This document shows positions 1 to 27,370 of a DNA stretch of 64,000 nt, one piece after another (position 1 is the first letter of the stretch; every line of letters begins with the position of its first letter). Position numbers and translations under genes: made by a program. The stretch is from the NCBI RefSeq assembly GCF_900106585.1, contig NZ_FNWH01000006.1:1270502-1334501 (forward strand). Direction: 5' to 3'. Origin of the DNA: Acidaminococcus timonensis. GTDB lineage: Bacteria > Bacillota > Negativicutes > Acidaminococcales > Acidaminococcaceae. The notes below the pieces were generated by a model. The model saw only the letters and a program-made list of their open reading frames with translations, had not been told where the DNA came from and ran no database searches.

Positions 1-342
1 ATACCAGATGTATAATCTCCCTCGCCATGCTCGCCGTTCCTTGGATCCATCCAATTTCTCTTCGCGAGCTTGTGAACCTTAGATATCATATATCTTTGGT
101 CCCGGTTCTCAATTACTAAAGACACATTGCTGTGTTCCTAGTTCTCGTTACTCGTTTCTAAATTCGCATTTAGATCAGAGGTGCTTATCCGATCATCACA
201 TCGGATAAGACTTTGTTTTGTCTCTTCTATGAAGTTTTCAAGGTTCATGCTTCAGGGACGAGCCCTGAGAACCAAATATTGTTTTGACAGATGTGCGTCG
301 ACGAGAATAGAAGCAAGCCCTCGGGCTCCTTCGGTTCTCCAT
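1..342 (-). other. 16S-23S internal transcribed spacer (partial)
   Basis: This stretch lies downstream of the 16S 3' end on the minus strand, so it is the start of the 16S-23S spacer; the 23S gene would lie before position 1. I looked for tRNA-Ile and tRNA-Ala and saw no cloverleaf. Near 230-290 the minus strand reads like the conserved Firmicutes rRNA spacer block (TTGAAAACTTCATAGAAG). A similar block occurs in the 16S leader (about 1985-2045), as expected for rRNA processing stems and antitermination boxes. No protein gene is supported. Confidence 0.7.
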
Positions 343-1901
<1,559 letters not shown>

Positions 1902-19359: not shown

Positions 19360-19555
19360 AAAAGAAAGAGCCCTACAATGCCGTACCAATTCCGAGTTTT
19401 GAACCTGCCTAAGCAGGTGGGTGCCCTCCCTGTCGTATCTAATGTCCCCTCGAAAGGGCATATTATCAACGGCCGGAGTTCACGGGCTCCCTTATAGAGA
19501 GTGTTGGCTCAAAACATATGGAATTCGACTCGCACATCGGAGGGTTGCTCTTTAT
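19360..19555 (-). ncRNA. ssrS: Probable 6S RNA
   Basis: Transcript of about 195 nt defined by a strong promoter directly upstream and a T-rich end. 5' and 3' ends pair: AAAGAGC..CCCT at the start with AGGGCTCTTT at the end, then CGATGTGC with a GGCATTG-type strand and AATTCC with GGAATT. This long closing stem encloses an open central region (around TTTTGAGCCAACACTC and CCGTTGATAATATG) and an inner stem (CCCTTTCGAGGG; ACCTGCTTAGGCAGGT). That is the 6S layout, an RNA that binds sigma70 RNA polymerase by mimicking an open promoter. The identification rests on structure and size, not a database hit. Confidence 0.6.
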
Positions 19556-21022: not shown

Positions 21023-22021
21023 TTATGAGGTGAGCTGGTTCCCCAGCTCACAGGCTCTCCGCTTCAATGTAGGAACCTCGGGCATCTTGGGAATATCGAG
21101 CGGATAAACCCCTGTTGTTACAAATTGGTAGAACTCGTTTGGCGACAGTTTCGCCAGTTCCCACTGGTAGCGATCGTTGTTGTAATAATCCATGTAATCA
21201 TCTACGATGGCCTTCACCTCCCCAAAGCTCACTGCTGCTGCAATTTTCTTTTTCACATGGTCTTTCATACGGCCGAAGAAGCTTTCCTGCGGCGCATTGT
21301 CCCAGCAATTCCCCCGCCGTGACATGGATTGTCTGAGATCCTTGTCATGGAGGATATCAATGAAGCTGTGACTCGTATAATGGCAACCCTGGTCAGAATG
21401 CACGATGGTTTCAGCATGCAGTGAGACGCCGTGATCTCGAATCAGGTTGTTCACCGTTTCTACCACGAAATCCATCTCCAAAGAATTGCTGAGGACATAC
21501 GCCAGAATCTGCTTGGTATAGGCATCCAATATGGTAGAAAGATAAGCAAAGATCCCATTGTAAGGAAGGTACGTAATATCTGTCAGCAGTACCATGCGAG
21601 GGCCATAGTCCTCAAACTGGCGCTGCAGCAAGTTATCGGCCACCGTATTGGTCTTCAGGGCTTTCACCAGCTGCCGATAGGGATTCGCCTTCCTGATGGG
21701 GCAAAGCAGGTGGAACTTTTTCATCAGACGACGGATTTTCTTCACATTCATAATGACGGGCGGATCCATGTGGAGCAGCTCCATATAGATGCTGCGGGCG
21801 CCCTTCTTGTACCCTCGTCTTTTGTAAGCGGCAAGGATCAGTTCAAAGTCCTTGCGGTCCTGTTCTTCCTGGGCCTGCCGAAATGCTTCCGCCTTCACCC
21901 AGGCATAATAACCGCTTCGGGACACGCCTGCCATCTTGCATAAACTGCTGATGGAAAGTCTGTTCTCGCTGGTACTTACCGTCTTTTCTATGATTTCGAA
22001 CACACAAGAGGAATCGTTCAT
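21023..22021 (-). CDS. IS3-family transposase OrfB, DDE domain (332 aa), copy 1
   Basis: rve-type integrase core with the DDE triad: Asp in LLTDITYLPYNG (near 144), Asp in IVHSDQGCHYTS (near 206), Glu in APQESFFGRMKD (near 242). N-terminal HTH_21 region with the block ISSLCKMAGVSRSGYYAWVK (24-43). The 12 bases between the OrfA stop region and this ATG are open in this frame back to the slippery run, so an OrfAB fusion can form. Translation is identical to copy 2. Confidence 0.93.
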   Translation of the reverse strand: MNDSSCVFEIIEKTVSTSENRLSISSLCKMAGVSRSGYYAWVKAEAFRQAQEEQDRKDFELILAAYKRRGYKKGARSIYMELLHMDPPVIMNVKKIRRLMKKFHLLCPIRKANPYRQLVKALKTNTVADNLLQRQFEDYGPRMVLLTDITYLPYNGIFAYLSTILDAYTKQILAYVLSNSLEMDFVVETVNNLIRDHGVSLHAETIVHSDQGCHYTSHSFIDILHDKDLRQSMSRRGNCWDNAPQESFFGRMKDHVKKKIAAAVSFGEVKAIVDDYMDYYNNDRYQWELAKLSPNEFYQFVTTGVYPLDIPKMPEVPTLKRRACELGNQLTS

Positions 22022-22032
22022 GAGCAGAGAAT

Positions 22033-22042
22033 CTACCTTTTT
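22033..22042 (-). other. Candidate -1 ribosomal frameshift site, IS copy 1
   Basis: On the minus strand A-AAA-AGG directly precedes the OrfA stop TAG (22033-22035). Slipping back one base turns AAA-AGG into AAA-AAG-GTA and continues without a stop into the OrfB ATG at 22021. This matches the way many IS3 elements make the OrfAB transposase. No downstream pseudoknot was worked out. Confidence 0.6.
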
Positions 22043-22437
22043 GTGTTCTTGATCGCGGAAATTTTTTTTAAATATTCCACTTCCTGCCGCAAGTATTCAA
22101 CTTCATGTCTGAGGGCCTTAATGTCATCTTCATGCTTGACCTTGGCGGCGGTGTCAGACCTGTCGGCGGGTCTCCTGCCTTCATAGAAACAGCCATATTT
22201 GGCATATTCCTCTTTGATATGCTGGAGAGCACCGCCAATGCGTCTTTCGCCCAGCACAGCAGGGTCAAAGCCGTATTTTTTGAAGATGTCTTTGGGATAG
22301 ACTCCTTCCATATATTCGGTGTAAAAGATTTCTTTAAAGGACTTCCTCAGGACCAGGGTAGAGCGGCTTACGCTATACACATAAGGGTTCTGGCGCAACG
22401 CTGCAATCTGCTCCTCAGTAAAAAGTTTTCTGCTCAT
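22033..22437 (-). CDS. IS3-family OrfA (134 aa), copy 1
   Basis: Small DNA-binding subunit: HTH-like region (residues about 5-60) and a C-terminal heptad zipper (ALRHEVEYLRQEVEYLKK, near 105-125). The ATG at 22437 has AAGGAG seven bases upstream; the longer open frame has no support. The gene ends in CAAAAAGG followed by the stop, which sets up a -1 shift into OrfB. Confidence 0.9.
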   Translation of the reverse strand: MSRKLFTEEQIAALRQNPYVYSVSRSTLVLRKSFKEIFYTEYMEGVYPKDIFKKYGFDPAVLGERRIGGALQHIKEEYAKYGCFYEGRRPADRSDTAAKVKHEDDIKALRHEVEYLRQEVEYLKKISAIKNTKR

Positions 22438-22609
22438 GTGGATTCTCCTTGGCTTTATTGGATTTGAGGATACCACATACATATGATTGTGTTCAATAGG
22501 TTGGGTCCAAAATGAGCACGTCAATTTTAAAGGATTCAAATTGTAGCCTGTCCAATTTTGTGGGCAGGTGCTACTCTTAAAAAGTGTCCACACTTATGGG
22601 TACAGTATA

Positions 22610-23859: not shown

Positions 23860-25371
23860 TTATGGTTTCCGCAGCCACTCACTGAGGGCTTCCATGGCGA
23901 TGACCAGCAGGGCCAGTCCCCAGAGCAGGGCTCCGGCTTCCTGCCATTTGTAATGCTGCAGGGCCAGGATCAGGGGCGTACCGATGCCTCCGGCCCCTAC
24001 CAGGCCCAGAATGGCCGCTTCCCGCAGGTTCACATCCAGACGATACAGGATGGCCGCACCCCAGCCCGGTTCCAGCTGGGGCAGCAGCCCCCGCCAGAAG
24101 GCCCTGGCCCTGCCGCAGCCCGTGGCTTCATACGCCAGGTAGGGTCCCGGTGCGATTTCTTCCAGGGTATTGAGGAAACGCCTGGCCAGCAGGCCGATGC
24201 TGCAAAGCATCAGGGTCAGTACCCCGGCAAAGGGTCCCGGCCCCGTCACCCGGATCCATAACAGTCCATAAACGAAGACCGGTACCGTCCGAATGGCCAG
24301 CAGCAGCAGCCGGGGTACCAGTGCCACTCCCACCGGCAGCAGCCGGAAACTGGACAGACTGCTGAGCGCTCCTGCCAGTACAGCGCCGCCCAGGGTCCCC
24401 AGCAGGGCCATGCAGAAGGTTTCCCACAGCAGATACAGGACCCCTTCCCGGGAAAGGTCCCGCACCATGGACAGGTCCGGATGCAGCAGGCCGGAAACCA
24501 TTCCCCCGGCAGCTTTCAGTCCAGTCCCTCCCATGGGTTCCACACTCCCAAGGGCCCAGAAAAGGACCAGAAGCCCCCCCGCCCAAAGGGCCCTGCGGAT
24601 TTTCTGCCCCGGCCGCCACTTCCCGGCCAGTCCCTGCCGCAGCAGTTCACTGCACATTTCAGAAGCCAGTACCACCCCATACAGCAGAAGCAGAATGGTA
24701 CCCACCTGGCTGTAGGCCCGCCAGGCCAGCCGCTCGTTCAGAAGCAGGCCGATCCCGCCGGCGCCCACATAGCCCAGGATGGCCGCCTGCCGCACGTTGG
24801 CCTCCCACAGATAGAGTGCATTGCTCAGATAGCCGGGCAATACTTTGGGAAGGATGGCCCGAAAGAACGCCTTTCCCCTTCCCGACCCTGCCGCAGCCAG
24901 GGCCTGTGCCCCCTTCCAGTCCGCCGTCTCCATGTCTTCATACCCCAGCCGAGTCATCACGCCGAACGCATAAACGGTCAGTGCCAGGGTCCCAGCCAGG
25001 GTCCCCAGTCCCACCAGAAACGTACAGAAAAGTGCCAGGATCAGCGCCGGCACTGTACGCAGCAGCTGGATCAGCAGTTTGAAGGGAACCCGCAGAAACG
25101 GGCAGGGATCGGTCCAGCGGTTGGCCAGCAGGGCCCCCAAAAATCCAAGGAGGGTCCCCAGGACCGAGCCCAGCACCGACATCCGGATGGTGGCCGCCAG
25201 CGGGTACAGGACTTGTCCAACATACCGGGGGTCCGGAGGGACCATGGCTTCCAGAATGTCCAGGAACCGGCTGCCCCGTTCTGCCAGCACCAGCAGCGAG
25301 GCCCCGGTCTCCTGCCAGGCCGCCGCCAGGAGTAGCAGCAGGAGCCACCGTTTTCGCCAGCGAATCTTCAT
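23860..25371 (-). CDS. phnE: PhnE-type ABC permease, two permease domains fused (503 aa)
   Basis: Membrane component of a phosphonate-type importer. The usual PhnE is about 260-290 aa with one BPD_transp_1 domain; this protein has two in tandem. Each half ends with the PhnE signature: NVRQAAILGYVGAGGIG (near 200) and NLREAAILGLVGAGGIG (near 455). Each has a cytoplasmic coupling loop before it (GSGRGKAFFRAILP and GCGRARAFWRGLLP). About 12 hydrophobic segments are visible. The ATG at 25371 overlaps the phnC stop (ATGA). The fusion supplies both permease subunits of the transporter from one polypeptide. Confidence 0.9.
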   Translation of the reverse strand: MKIRWRKRWLLLLLLAAAWQETGASLLVLAERGSRFLDILEAMVPPDPRYVGQVLYPLAATIRMSVLGSVLGTLLGFLGALLANRWTDPCPFLRVPFKLLIQLLRTVPALILALFCTFLVGLGTLAGTLALTVYAFGVMTRLGYEDMETADWKGAQALAAAGSGRGKAFFRAILPKVLPGYLSNALYLWEANVRQAAILGYVGAGGIGLLLNERLAWRAYSQVGTILLLLYGVVLASEMCSELLRQGLAGKWRPGQKIRRALWAGGLLVLFWALGSVEPMGGTGLKAAGGMVSGLLHPDLSMVRDLSREGVLYLLWETFCMALLGTLGGAVLAGALSSLSSFRLLPVGVALVPRLLLLAIRTVPVFVYGLLWIRVTGPGPFAGVLTLMLCSIGLLARRFLNTLEEIAPGPYLAYEATGCGRARAFWRGLLPQLEPGWGAAILYRLDVNLREAAILGLVGAGGIGTPLILALQHYKWQEAGALLWGLALLVIAMEALSEWLRKP

Positions 25372-26120
25372 GCCTGCCTCCTGTACAGTTCCCGGAACCG
25401 GGTTTCCGTCCATTCGTCCGGGTTGCCATCGAAGCCGATCCGTCCCTGGCGCAGACCCAGGATCCGGTCCGAATACTGCCGGGCCTGCTCCACGTTATGG
25501 CTGTTCATGACCACCGTCAGCTGCTGTGTTTCCTGCAGCCGGCGCAGCAATTCCAGGATGGCCCGGCTGGAACCGGGATCCAGGGAAGCCACAGGTTCAT
25601 CTGCCAGGATGATGGATGCCTGCTGGACCAGGACCCGGGCAATGGCCACCCGCTGTTTCTGGCCCCCGCTCAGTTCACCGGTCTTCTTGTCAGCGGAATC
25701 GGCCAGGCCCACCAGTTCCAGGGCCTCCCGCGCCCGTTCCACTTCCTCCTGGGGAAAATGATCCAGCAATACACGCCAGAAGGGAACACGGGACAGGCTG
25801 CCGTTGAGTACATTGGCCAGACAGGTACTTTCTTCCACCAGACAGAAATCCTGGAAGATCATCCCCACCTGCTGCTGGACCTGCCGGCGTTTTTTCCCTT
25901 TCAGGCAGTCAAAGCGCTGTCCTTCCACCCAGACTTCCCCGGCTGCCGGCTTCACCATGCCGTTGAACAGCCGCAGAAGGGTGGTCTTGCCGGCCCCGCT
26001 GGGCCCGATGACCGAAAGGAACTGCCCTTCCGGCACGGAAAGAGACACCCCATCCAGGATGAGGTGTCCCTTCTGATACGATTGTGTCACATGCCGCAAT
26101 CCCAGTGCTTCTTTCGTCAT
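25368..26120 (-). CDS. phnC: PhnC-type ABC transporter ATP-binding protein (250 aa)
   Basis: ATPase of the importer. Walker A GPSGAGKTT at 39-47, Q-loop near 88, ABC signature LSGGQKQRVAIARVL (near 148-162) and Walker B IILADEPVASLDP (near 168-180). In PhnC-type transporters it couples ATP hydrolysis to uptake of phosphonates, phosphite or related phosphoesters. It overlaps phnD by four bases upstream and phnE by four bases downstream. Confidence 0.94.
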   Translation of the reverse strand: MTKEALGLRHVTQSYQKGHLILDGVSLSVPEGQFLSVIGPSGAGKTTLLRLFNGMVKPAAGEVWVEGQRFDCLKGKKRRQVQQQVGMIFQDFCLVEESTCLANVLNGSLSRVPFWRVLLDHFPQEEVERAREALELVGLADSADKKTGELSGGQKQRVAIARVLVQQASIILADEPVASLDPGSSRAILELLRRLQETQQLTVVMNSHNVEQARQYSDRILGLRQGRIGFDGNPDEWTETRFRELYRRQA

Positions 26121-27142
26121 TTCAATTCCTTCTGGATCTTCCGTTCGCTGTCGTAGTCGCTGGACCTGGCCCAGTCGTATCCTTTGTGCCCGATGGTCTT
26201 CAGGATCTTCAGCCCTTCGTCCGTCTTGCCGATTTCGATCAGGGCCTCGCCCAGTGCTTTCCGGAATCCTTCATCCTGCATCAGTTTGCTGCTTTTGCTG
26301 ACACTGATGGTATCGTTGAAGATCTTGTCCGATACGCCGATCACACCGGTCTGTTCCCAGATGGGAGCGGTACCGCCCAGTTTGGCCTGCCAGTCTTTTT
26401 CCATCTTGGCACGGATATGGGAATAGGCCACCATCACGTCCACCTGGCCACTGGCCAGCCGTGCCGCAGAGGTGGTATAGGAATCAGCCTGGACCACATG
26501 GGGCAGGTCTTTCAGGGTCTTTCCATAATTCTCCTTCAGCCACAGGGAAGGATACAGGTAACCGGAAGCGGAAGCCGGGCTCATCACCGACCAGTTCAGA
26601 TCTGCCAGTTCCTCCCAGGTGGGCTTTTCCCCCCGTTTCACCCTGGCAAGCAGGGCCTGTCCCTTGGGGCTGGGTCCCACCACAATGGCCGACCGGTAAT
26701 ATTTCACCAGATTTTTGGTGAATGTATCCCGGCTGCCGTCATTCCATACCTTCAGATCCGTGGTGTCCTTATTGATGCCTTCCCGCAGTGCCGTCAGCAG
26801 CACGTCCACATCCTTGTCATAGAGCACATACGTGGCTCCGGAAATAAAGCCCACATCGGCACTGCCTGCACTGAGAGCCTCTCCCACCGCATTGTAGGAG
26901 GTTCCTACGGTGATGGAAACTTTTTTCACATCATAGCCTTTTTCCTTCAATTTGGCCTGGAGCAGTTTGCCCAGGGGCTCCGTCCGGGTCCTGATGGTAT
27001 CCGCATCCTGATAGGGCGAAATGGCGATTTTCAGTTCCGGTATGGATCGGCTTCCTTCTTTTTTCTCCGTTGTACTGCCGCAGCCGGAAGCCAGCAGCGC
27101 TCCTGCCAGCAGCATCCCTGTCATCATTTTCCATAATTTCAT
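26117..27142 (-). CDS. phnD: PhnD-type phosphonate/phosphate-analogue-binding lipoprotein (341 aa)
   Basis: Periplasmic-binding-protein-like lipoprotein; lipobox LLASGC with Cys21. PhnD-family landmarks: LKIAISPYQDADTI (near 38-51), DVGFISGATYVLY (near 96-108), AIVVGPSPKGQ (near 152) and the binding-loop block SVMSPASASGYLYPS (near 183-197). No C-P lyase or phosphonatase genes accompany it, so the substrate is open. First gene of phnD-phnC-phnE. AAGGGG lies eight bases before the ATG, and a structured leader with a terminator-like hairpin precedes it, suggesting riboswitch control. Confidence 0.92.
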   Translation of the reverse strand: MKLWKMMTGMLLAGALLASGCGSTTEKKEGSRSIPELKIAISPYQDADTIRTRTEPLGKLLQAKLKEKGYDVKKVSITVGTSYNAVGEALSAGSADVGFISGATYVLYDKDVDVLLTALREGINKDTTDLKVWNDGSRDTFTKNLVKYYRSAIVVGPSPKGQALLARVKRGEKPTWEELADLNWSVMSPASASGYLYPSLWLKENYGKTLKDLPHVVQADSYTTSAARLASGQVDVMVAYSHIRAKMEKDWQAKLGGTAPIWEQTGVIGVSDKIFNDTISVSKSSKLMQDEGFRKALGEALIEIGKTDEGLKILKTIGHKGYDWARSSDYDSERKIQKELK

Positions 27143-27172: not shown

Positions 27173-27209
27173 AAAATCGGCTGCCGCACCAGGCGACAGC
27201 CGATTTTTT
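27173..27209. terminator. Terminator-like hairpin in the phnD leader
   Basis: An 11-bp stem AAAATCGGCTG with CAGCCGATTTT. On the minus strand it precedes phnD by about 30 nt, followed by TTTTGTCTT, where an expression-platform terminator would sit. The plus-strand T-run is longer (six T), but no plus-strand gene uses it. Confidence 0.65.
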
Positions 27210-27215
27210 CAGGAA

Positions 27216-27304
27216 CAGACCGCGCCTTCAAGACAGGATTTCTCTCAGGTCGGTCGATACTCCGGTATCCTCTCAGCCCGGCTCACGGGCTCCCTCGCAG
27301 TCTG
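27216..27304 (-). promoter_or_regulatory. Structured leader RNA of phnDCE, TPP-riboswitch-like 5' half (candidate riboswitch)
   Basis: Minus-strand leader enclosed by a closing stem CAGACTGCG / CGCGGTCTG (27296-27304 with 27216-27224). Inside, in order: hairpin AGCCCG-loop-CGGGCT (27275-27291), then GAGAGG, hairpin GATAC-loop-GTATC (27256-27269), then ACCTGA. The string GGGCTGAGA..ATACC..GTATC..ACCTGA parallels the pyrimidine-sensing half of TPP riboswitches. The pyrophosphate-sensing half (GGATAAT..CC..GCGTAGGGA) is not recognisable. A further hairpin (27309-27334) lies 5' of it. The remaining bases to the aspS stop hold no gene. Confidence 0.5.
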
Positions 27305-27370
27305 ATCCCTGTTATGGTACTCCATAAAGCAGGACCGGGGCGCTCCCCCCAGTCCCACAGGCGGACCAGA

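Follow-up and report, generated by a model that had tools for sequence, protein, structure and literature searches.

A TPP-riboswitch-like leader with one arm exchanged, upstream of phnDCE, belongs to an apparently undescribed class of riboswitch candidates

The window, i.e., the whole 64,000-nucleotide stretch of Acidaminococcus timonensis DNA analyzed here, carries on its minus strand phnD-, phnC-, and phnE-like genes preceded by a structured leader. The genes and the parts of the leader are as follows.

26117..27142, minus strand: phnD-like substrate-binding lipoprotein (PF12974, 9.4e-40; TIGR01098, 113.2, above the cut-off of 112.05)
25368..26120, minus strand: phnC-like ATPase (TIGR02315, 281.9; cut-off, 266.1)
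23860..25413, minus strand: phnE-like permease (TIGR01097, 393.1 in two stretches; cut-off, 216.7)
27329..27358, minus strand: P0, a 5' hairpin with the hexaloop GGAGCG at 27346-27341 (fold z -4.15)
27305..27328, minus strand: variable linker from P0 to P1 (spacing of P0 loop and core, 26 to 124 nt across 59 loci)
27297..27304, minus strand: P1 5' strand (CAGACTGC)
27251..27306, minus strand: conserved core, including the P1 5' strand (68.1 bits with the covariance model R1, described below)
within the core, minus strand: P2, GG/CC plus G.A positions
27289-27286/27280-27277, minus strand: P3, within the core
27275-27269, minus strand: UGAGAGG, within the core
27269-27265/27260-27256, minus strand: P3a, within the core
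27256-27251, minus strand: CGACCG, within the core
27224..27250, minus strand: variable arm, located where TPP riboswitches have P4/P5 and including a nonconserved ACCTGA
27216..27223, minus strand: P1 3' strand (GCGGTCTG)
27173..27207, minus strand: intrinsic terminator hairpin between the aptamer and phnD (fold z -6.87)

The window also contains a 6S RNA gene (19366-19548, minus strand) and a 16S rRNA gene (345-1901, minus strand). At 21023-22593 (minus strand), two neighboring reading frames resemble an insertion-sequence transposase by eye.

An earlier note, made from the sequence alone, had described the leader as a TPP-like aptamer that keeps the pyrimidine arm and lacks the pyrophosphate arm. 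The closing stem that it proposed is present on the minus strand (27297-27304/27216-27223), and so are its ordered blocks GGGCTGAGA (27279-27271), ATACC..GTATC (27268-27256), and ACCTGA (27250-27245), as well as the terminator hairpin at 27207-27173, about 30 nt ahead of the phnD ATG at 27142. While these structures are real, the extent given for the element was too short: its true start lies further upstream, at the GGAGCG-loop hairpin (27358-27329) that had been overlooked. The assignment of ACCTGA to the conserved core did not hold either, as an alignment of relatives places the conserved block at CGACCG; the stretch downstream of it already differs in A. fermentans and A. massiliensis and varies elsewhere, so that ACCTGA is a chance occurrence. 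The segment 27150-27350 folds better than its shuffles (z -3.48), the P1-closed domain gave a z of -2.44 against shuffles, and folding predicts the aptamer and the terminator as separate hairpins lying side by side. The Rfam TPP model (RF00059) aligns to the leader from end to end at only 21.9 bits, against a curated gathering cut-off of 54.3, with agreement on the P3 side and none on the P4/P5 side, which bears out the arm composition proposed earlier. Apart from this subthreshold TPP alignment, no Rfam family came near its cut-off in the window leader, two further listed matches being far below. Elsewhere in this genome, thiC is preceded by a canonical TPP riboswitch (69.3 bits) and thiW-thiM by a second copy of the element (L002, C6:871349-871449, minus strand), which scores 31.1 bits with RF00059.

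A pattern of the conserved core was searched in 380 Negativicutes genomes and gave 60 matches in 55 of them, compared to 9 matches in 8 genomes for a reversed control pattern. After removal of four matches (one canonical TPP riboswitch and three judged to be chance), 56 loci remained; they occur in 51 of the 380 genomes and are distributed over 14 genera. R1, a covariance model built from 45 distinct cores and no TPP sequence, revealed three more loci outside Negativicutes among 398 genomes of the phylum and 13 further loci among 162 genomes of the order to which one of those three belongs. The total thus stands at 72 loci, the window's included, in 66 genomes (56 loci in Negativicutes and 16 outside), and the element occurs in at least two classes of the phylum. 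One of the 13 later loci, L227, is degenerate and was recognized by eye. The gap in R1 scores first seen between motif and TPP riboswitches (61.8 versus 46.4 bits) was lost in the later search, where L227 reached 47.9 bits and the canonical TPP riboswitch L224 reached 51.1 bits; What distinguishes the two groups is P0 together with the missing P4/P5, and not the R1 score on its own. Four of the weaker R1 matches (46.4 bits and below) were examined, and further members may hide in this range. When 36 Negativicutes loci and the 16 outside loci were scanned with RF00059, no motif site exceeded the cut-off of 54.3 bits; in addition to the two copies described above, L124, for example, scored 22.9 bits.

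The loci share the core layout GAGGGA..P3..UGAGAGG-P3a-CGACC, completed by P1 and by a variable arm that is roughly 7 to 140 nt long. Across the 45 distinct cores, GC, AGGGA, UGAGAGG, and CGACC are invariant with one base excepted, and the base 5' of AGGGA varies. The pyrimidine-arm signature of RF00059 (UGAGA plus P3) is retained, with UGAGAGG and GGGA invariant in 45/45 distinct cores; the C preceding UGAGA varies, and the later locus L227 deviates from the invariance. Core positions are paired in 98.6% of 495 cells, and 6 of the 11 pairs changed on both sides, a number reached by 11 of 500 shuffles. Both-side changes affected 78 cells (no shuffle of 500 had as many), and the covariation score was 0.419 compared to 0.179 after shuffling (0/500) and at most 0.116 when slid. 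Both P3 and P3a covary within the core. The count of further pair types (12) showed no excess over shuffles, 495 of 500 being as high, and the two P2 pairs are invariant throughout the cores and hence give no covariation signal.

The GGAGC(G/T)-loop hairpin, P0, was found in all 59 loci of the first set, including the window's, at a loop-to-core distance of 26 to 124 nt upstream, and the loop is likewise present in all 13 later outside loci. A strict P0 test was passed by 55/59 motif loci versus 0/28 canonical TPP loci (30 were tried, two of which had no recognizable core). When strands were swapped between 55 distinct loci, the P0 outer stem proved to covary (own strands, -7.06 kcal/mol; permuted, -3.22 kcal/mol), with none of 300 permutations as good. 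P1 covaries as well in 48 distinct short-arm loci (-10.05 versus -6.74; 0/300), and for the 10 long-arm loci, all in one genus, between 0 and 7 of the 49 foreign strands did better than the locus's own. Conversely, even a loose TPP-type P4/P5 pattern matched none of 59 arms within their first 70 nt. The stems are therefore conserved and covarying in relatives, and no finding of the kind that would speak against the earlier note (unconserved stems, lack of covariation, or a full-scoring match to a known riboswitch) was encountered. As is generally expected of riboswitches, a conserved and covarying leader structure lies ahead of related genes in many genomes. The element is a real and widespread riboswitch candidate, built like a TPP riboswitch in which one arm has been swapped, and it falls outside RF00059 both by its score and by its lack of the P4/P5 arm.

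The element and the TPP riboswitch (RF00059, THI element) have in common P1, P2, P3, the UGAGA joining segment, and the optional P3a. An A and a G occupy two positions flanking P3 and P3a, as in TPP riboswitches, where A-G is the predominant correlated pair of P3a-type members (PMC2258182). Unlike the TPP riboswitch, the element has no P4/P5 arm, possesses the extra P0 with its GGAGC(G/T) loop, and, in the genomes surveyed, occurred only alongside thiazole-branch genes and phnDCE. Since the matches that the TPP-free model R1 ranks next include canonical TPP riboswitches (4/4 checked), the pyrimidine arm is, at the level of sequence, truly similar to that of TPP riboswitches, and the chance resemblance that the earlier note had kept as its alternative is unlikely. 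Descent of the element from TPP aptamers would fit, because L120, a canonical Negativicutes TPP riboswitch, carries a very similar arm. The thiS motif (PMC6478431) is likewise associated with thiazole-branch genes, including thiW and thiE, and is often located downstream of a TPP riboswitch; however, it is a small aptamer inside a terminator hairpin, whereas the element is a separate multihelix domain with TPP-arm sequence, and in the window the aptamer does not form part of the terminator stem. No thiS-type Rfam family was matched at the loci scanned, although Rfam 15 may hold no thiS model. No prior description of the class was found in Rfam 15 or in the open-access PMC papers searched. This is apparently a hitherto undescribed class of riboswitch candidates in Negativicutes and other groups of the phylum.

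With nearest genes assigned by tblastn using a few reference proteins, and examples by family matches, the nearest recognized gene at the 72 loci was thiW (51), phnD (18), a thiL-thiN fusion (2), or thiM (1), and never thiC. Some motif operons continue with thiM, thiE, and thiD. The loci with phnD comprise four in Acidaminococcus, 10 in a second genus of its family, two in a genus of another family, and two outside Negativicutes, for which PhnD identity was 58.99% and 57.47%. The contexts other than phnDCE (thiW, thiM, thiE, thiD, and thiN) run counter to the phosphonate-like ligand that the earlier note had considered, and since they are all thiamine genes, a phosphonate ligand was set aside. 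Regarding the pathway, and with the caveat that several of the motif genomes counted are incomplete, ThiG was detected in 155/380 genomes of the class, i.e., 13/51 motif genomes versus 142/329 others. In genus g66, it is absent from all 12 motif genomes and present in the four others. ThiC was found in 48/51 motif genomes, ThiG is lacking in 38/51, and Thi4 is absent from 60/60 genomes tested. Given the presence of ThiC in 48/51, of ThiG in 13/51, and of Thi4 in 0/60, the motif is often a sign of a bacterium that synthesizes the pyrimidine yet is obliged to import thiazole. At one locus (L136:805-2400, plus strand), ThiL-like (AIRS) domains are fused to ThiN behind the motif, and the fusion is followed by an MFS transporter and then by an M20 peptidase-family protein.

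Many motif loci are also neighbors of canonical TPP riboswitches. Outside Negativicutes, 12 of the 16 loci lie just downstream of one that exceeds the Rfam cut-off, and in three of these tandems (L171 to L173) a terminator-like hairpin separates the two aptamers by eye; inside Negativicutes, this arrangement was seen in 2 of the 36 loci scanned among the 56 (L103 and L104). A strong canonical TPP match exists in 23 of 28 motif genomes examined, and the remaining five (G020, G036, G041, G045, and G050), all of genus g13, show none. Tandem control by two TPP riboswitches is known on thiM and thiD (PMC12452182). PMC6478431 and PMC6429828 describe the thiS motif, an HMP-PP riboswitch, as often following a TPP riboswitch and as confined to HET-P genes, which in the former serves as an argument for a non-TPP ligand. 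Because thiamine or thiazole contexts account for 54/72 loci and the element stands in tandem with canonical TPP riboswitches, the suggestion of the earlier note that the ligand may be something other than TPP gains weight.

Although the three genes behind the window leader resemble a PhnDCE phosphonate importer in combining a binding protein of the PhnD type with homologues of PhnC and PhnE, PhnD falls by score outside both the phosphonate-binding equivalog TIGR03431 (54.2; cut-off, 261.1) and p37-Cypl NF045838 (28.5; cut-off, 225). The genes further differ from both systems in that they are preceded by a thiamine-type RNA and, in one genus, are found in place of ThiW. PhnE is a single protein with two PhnE-type permease domains, i.e., a fused double permease, and PhnD is 83% and 82% identical to its counterparts in A. 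fermentans and A. massiliensis, respectively. Modeling of PhnD with AlphaFold, based on 14 orthologues, gave a poor result (mean pLDDT, 56.2). Of the motif-bearing genomes of genus g13, 10 carry the motif with phnDCE and three carry it with thiW, none having both. The 10 phnDCE genomes have no ThiW, ThiG, or Thi4, and six of them are also without ThiM; all six have ThiC and a ThiE match, with two of the six being only 73% and 88% complete. On the simplest reading of these gene contents, PhnDCE would import thiazole, already phosphorylated where ThiM is absent. PhnDCE may thus import HET-phosphate, given the 10 g13 genomes without ThiW, ThiG, and Thi4 and the six among them that also lack ThiM. 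A strict thiazole-importer reading is opposed by G132 and G365 of family f7, which have motif-phnDCE together with both ThiG and a ThiW, and by four Acidaminococcus genomes that carry phnDCE and thiW together. In L206 to L209 (genomes G052, G048, G054, and G055), the ThiE match is split in two within one open frame; in the ThiM-less genomes, the split match is perhaps a ThiE with an insertion.

Two kinds of expression platform were recognized. One was tested on 12 representatives of 18 computed phnDCE and thiL-thiN leaders, with hand-chosen terminator stretches: the terminator's 5' strand has a possible partner in the 3' portion of the variable arm, and the two strands covary (-13.43 versus -10.18; 2/1000 permutations). 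In the 13 outside-class thiW/thiM leaders, the sequence ahead of P0 pairs with the stretch preceding the start codon better than permuted partners do (-25.15 versus -18.14; 0/500). By eye, this outer stem around P0 and P1 touches the Shine-Dalgarno (SD) sequence in seven of the 13 (L171, L172, L173, L218, L220, L221, and L222); the SD duplex was equaled by 1/300 shuffles in L171 and 2/300 in L173, and that of L172 was not better than shuffles (46/300). In the Negativicutes leaders that were folded, inspection by eye showed no such outer stem. Both platforms are consistent with OFF regulation: once folded, the aptamer would free the terminator or hide the ribosome site. An ON switch, acting through a pseudoknot in the bound state, is possible because the antiterminator strand lies near P1. 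In many of the thiW leaders L105 to L116, L131, L134, and L135, terminator-like hairpins hold the SD within their 3' strand, and in the same set the U-run touches the ATG. Several terminator loops of thiW leaders share by eye a C(C/T)GG(G)-AA-like stretch, which might be a further sensor. A thiS-like element within these SD-containing terminators of Negativicutes thiW leaders is no more than a lead, as Rfam returned nothing there at the six loci scanned.

The reading that we favor, with nearly an even chance of being right as a whole, is that the leader represents an undescribed riboswitch-candidate class that binds an HMP-pyrimidine metabolite and switches thiazole acquisition, probably OFF, with PhnDCE as a thiazole-branch importer. 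P0 would stand in for the missing second arm, so that the two-armed TPP fold would be permuted; that P0 replaces P4/P5 is a statement of geometry only, since the P0 internal loop is not conserved. The RNA would bind TMP or thiamine in the first place and HMP-P or HMP-PP in the second, TPP and HET-P being possible as well. Once ligand bound, it would most likely turn thiazole acquisition OFF, by freeing the terminator in phnDCE leaders and, in several outside-class leaders, by closing the outer stem so that the Shine-Dalgarno sequence is hidden; PhnDCE would then serve the thiazole branch as an importer, perhaps of HET-phosphate. Since the contexts are confined to the thiazole branch, however, HMP-PP or HET-P would be more plausible ligands than TMP or thiamine, which speaks against this order. 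A switch turned ON by HMP-PP (or HMP-P), by which a pyrimidine surplus would induce thiazole uptake and phosphorylation as for the unrelated thiS motif, would account for a gene set that resembles that of the thiS motif (HET-P genes, often after a TPP riboswitch; PMC6478431 and PMC6429828), for the retained pyrimidine arm, and for genomes typically having ThiC and no ThiG; a ligand-stabilized pseudoknot could also block the terminator, given the antiterminator strand near P1. We nevertheless hold it to be unlikely, as several outside-class leaders have an outer stem that covers the SD region and reads as OFF, and the aptamer and terminator of the window fold side by side.

Alternatively, the element could be a second architecture of the TPP riboswitch itself, in which a permuted aptamer binds TPP and turns expression OFF in the ordinary way. 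TPP is a possible ligand because TPP-TPP tandems are known on thiM and thiD (PMC12452182) and five of the 28 motif genomes are without a strong canonical TPP match; moreover, UGAGA and P3 are retained, and P0 offers a stem, an inner stem, and a six-base loop like P4/P5. Such a switch would, however, be redundant in the 23 genomes with a canonical TPP riboswitch and where one directly precedes the motif, and with thiC as the nearest gene in 0/72 loci and the P4/P5 pattern in 0/59 arms (first 70 nt), this explanation is slightly less likely still. Product feedback by HET-P (or HET) through an OFF switch on thiazole uptake and kinase genes would suit the neighboring genes, most of which serve HET uptake or encode a HET kinase, and the platforms that read as OFF. 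HET-P, however, is without a pyrimidine, yet UGAGAGG of the TPP pyrimidine arm is invariant in 45/45 distinct cores, and we consider such feedback quite unlikely. A degenerate or chance TPP-like leader with no function, which the low RF00059 score of 21.9 bits might suggest, is extremely improbable in view of 72 loci in at least two classes, compensatory changes, and consistent gene contexts. Returning to the favored HMP-pyrimidine reading, its more specific version, which we hold tentatively and with somewhat more doubt than belief, would have the class arise from a TPP aptamer by loss of the pyrophosphate arm and gain of P0 on the 5' side, bind a ligand other than TPP, and control in PhnDCE an unrecognized HET-phosphate importer. 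If this is true, the RNA would balance the thiazole branch by sensing a compound of the thiamine pathway other than TPP, and PhnDCE would let bacteria without ThiG, Thi4, ThiW, and ThiM complete thiamine. The class, often in tandem with its likely parent, the TPP riboswitch, would point to a new uptake route for a vitamin B1 precursor and suggest what role a PhnDCE branch with homologues annotated as phosphonate transport may have.

Two phnD-related loci deserve mention. In another Acidaminococcus genome (L050, G007:C1:1670989-1671141), a short phnD-like piece with 69% identity over 51 residues lies where the window has phnD and adjoins aspS-like sequence by eye, possibly reflecting gene loss. 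In L213, a ZMP/ZTP riboswitch (310-399, minus strand) is located close to a phnD-associated copy of the motif.
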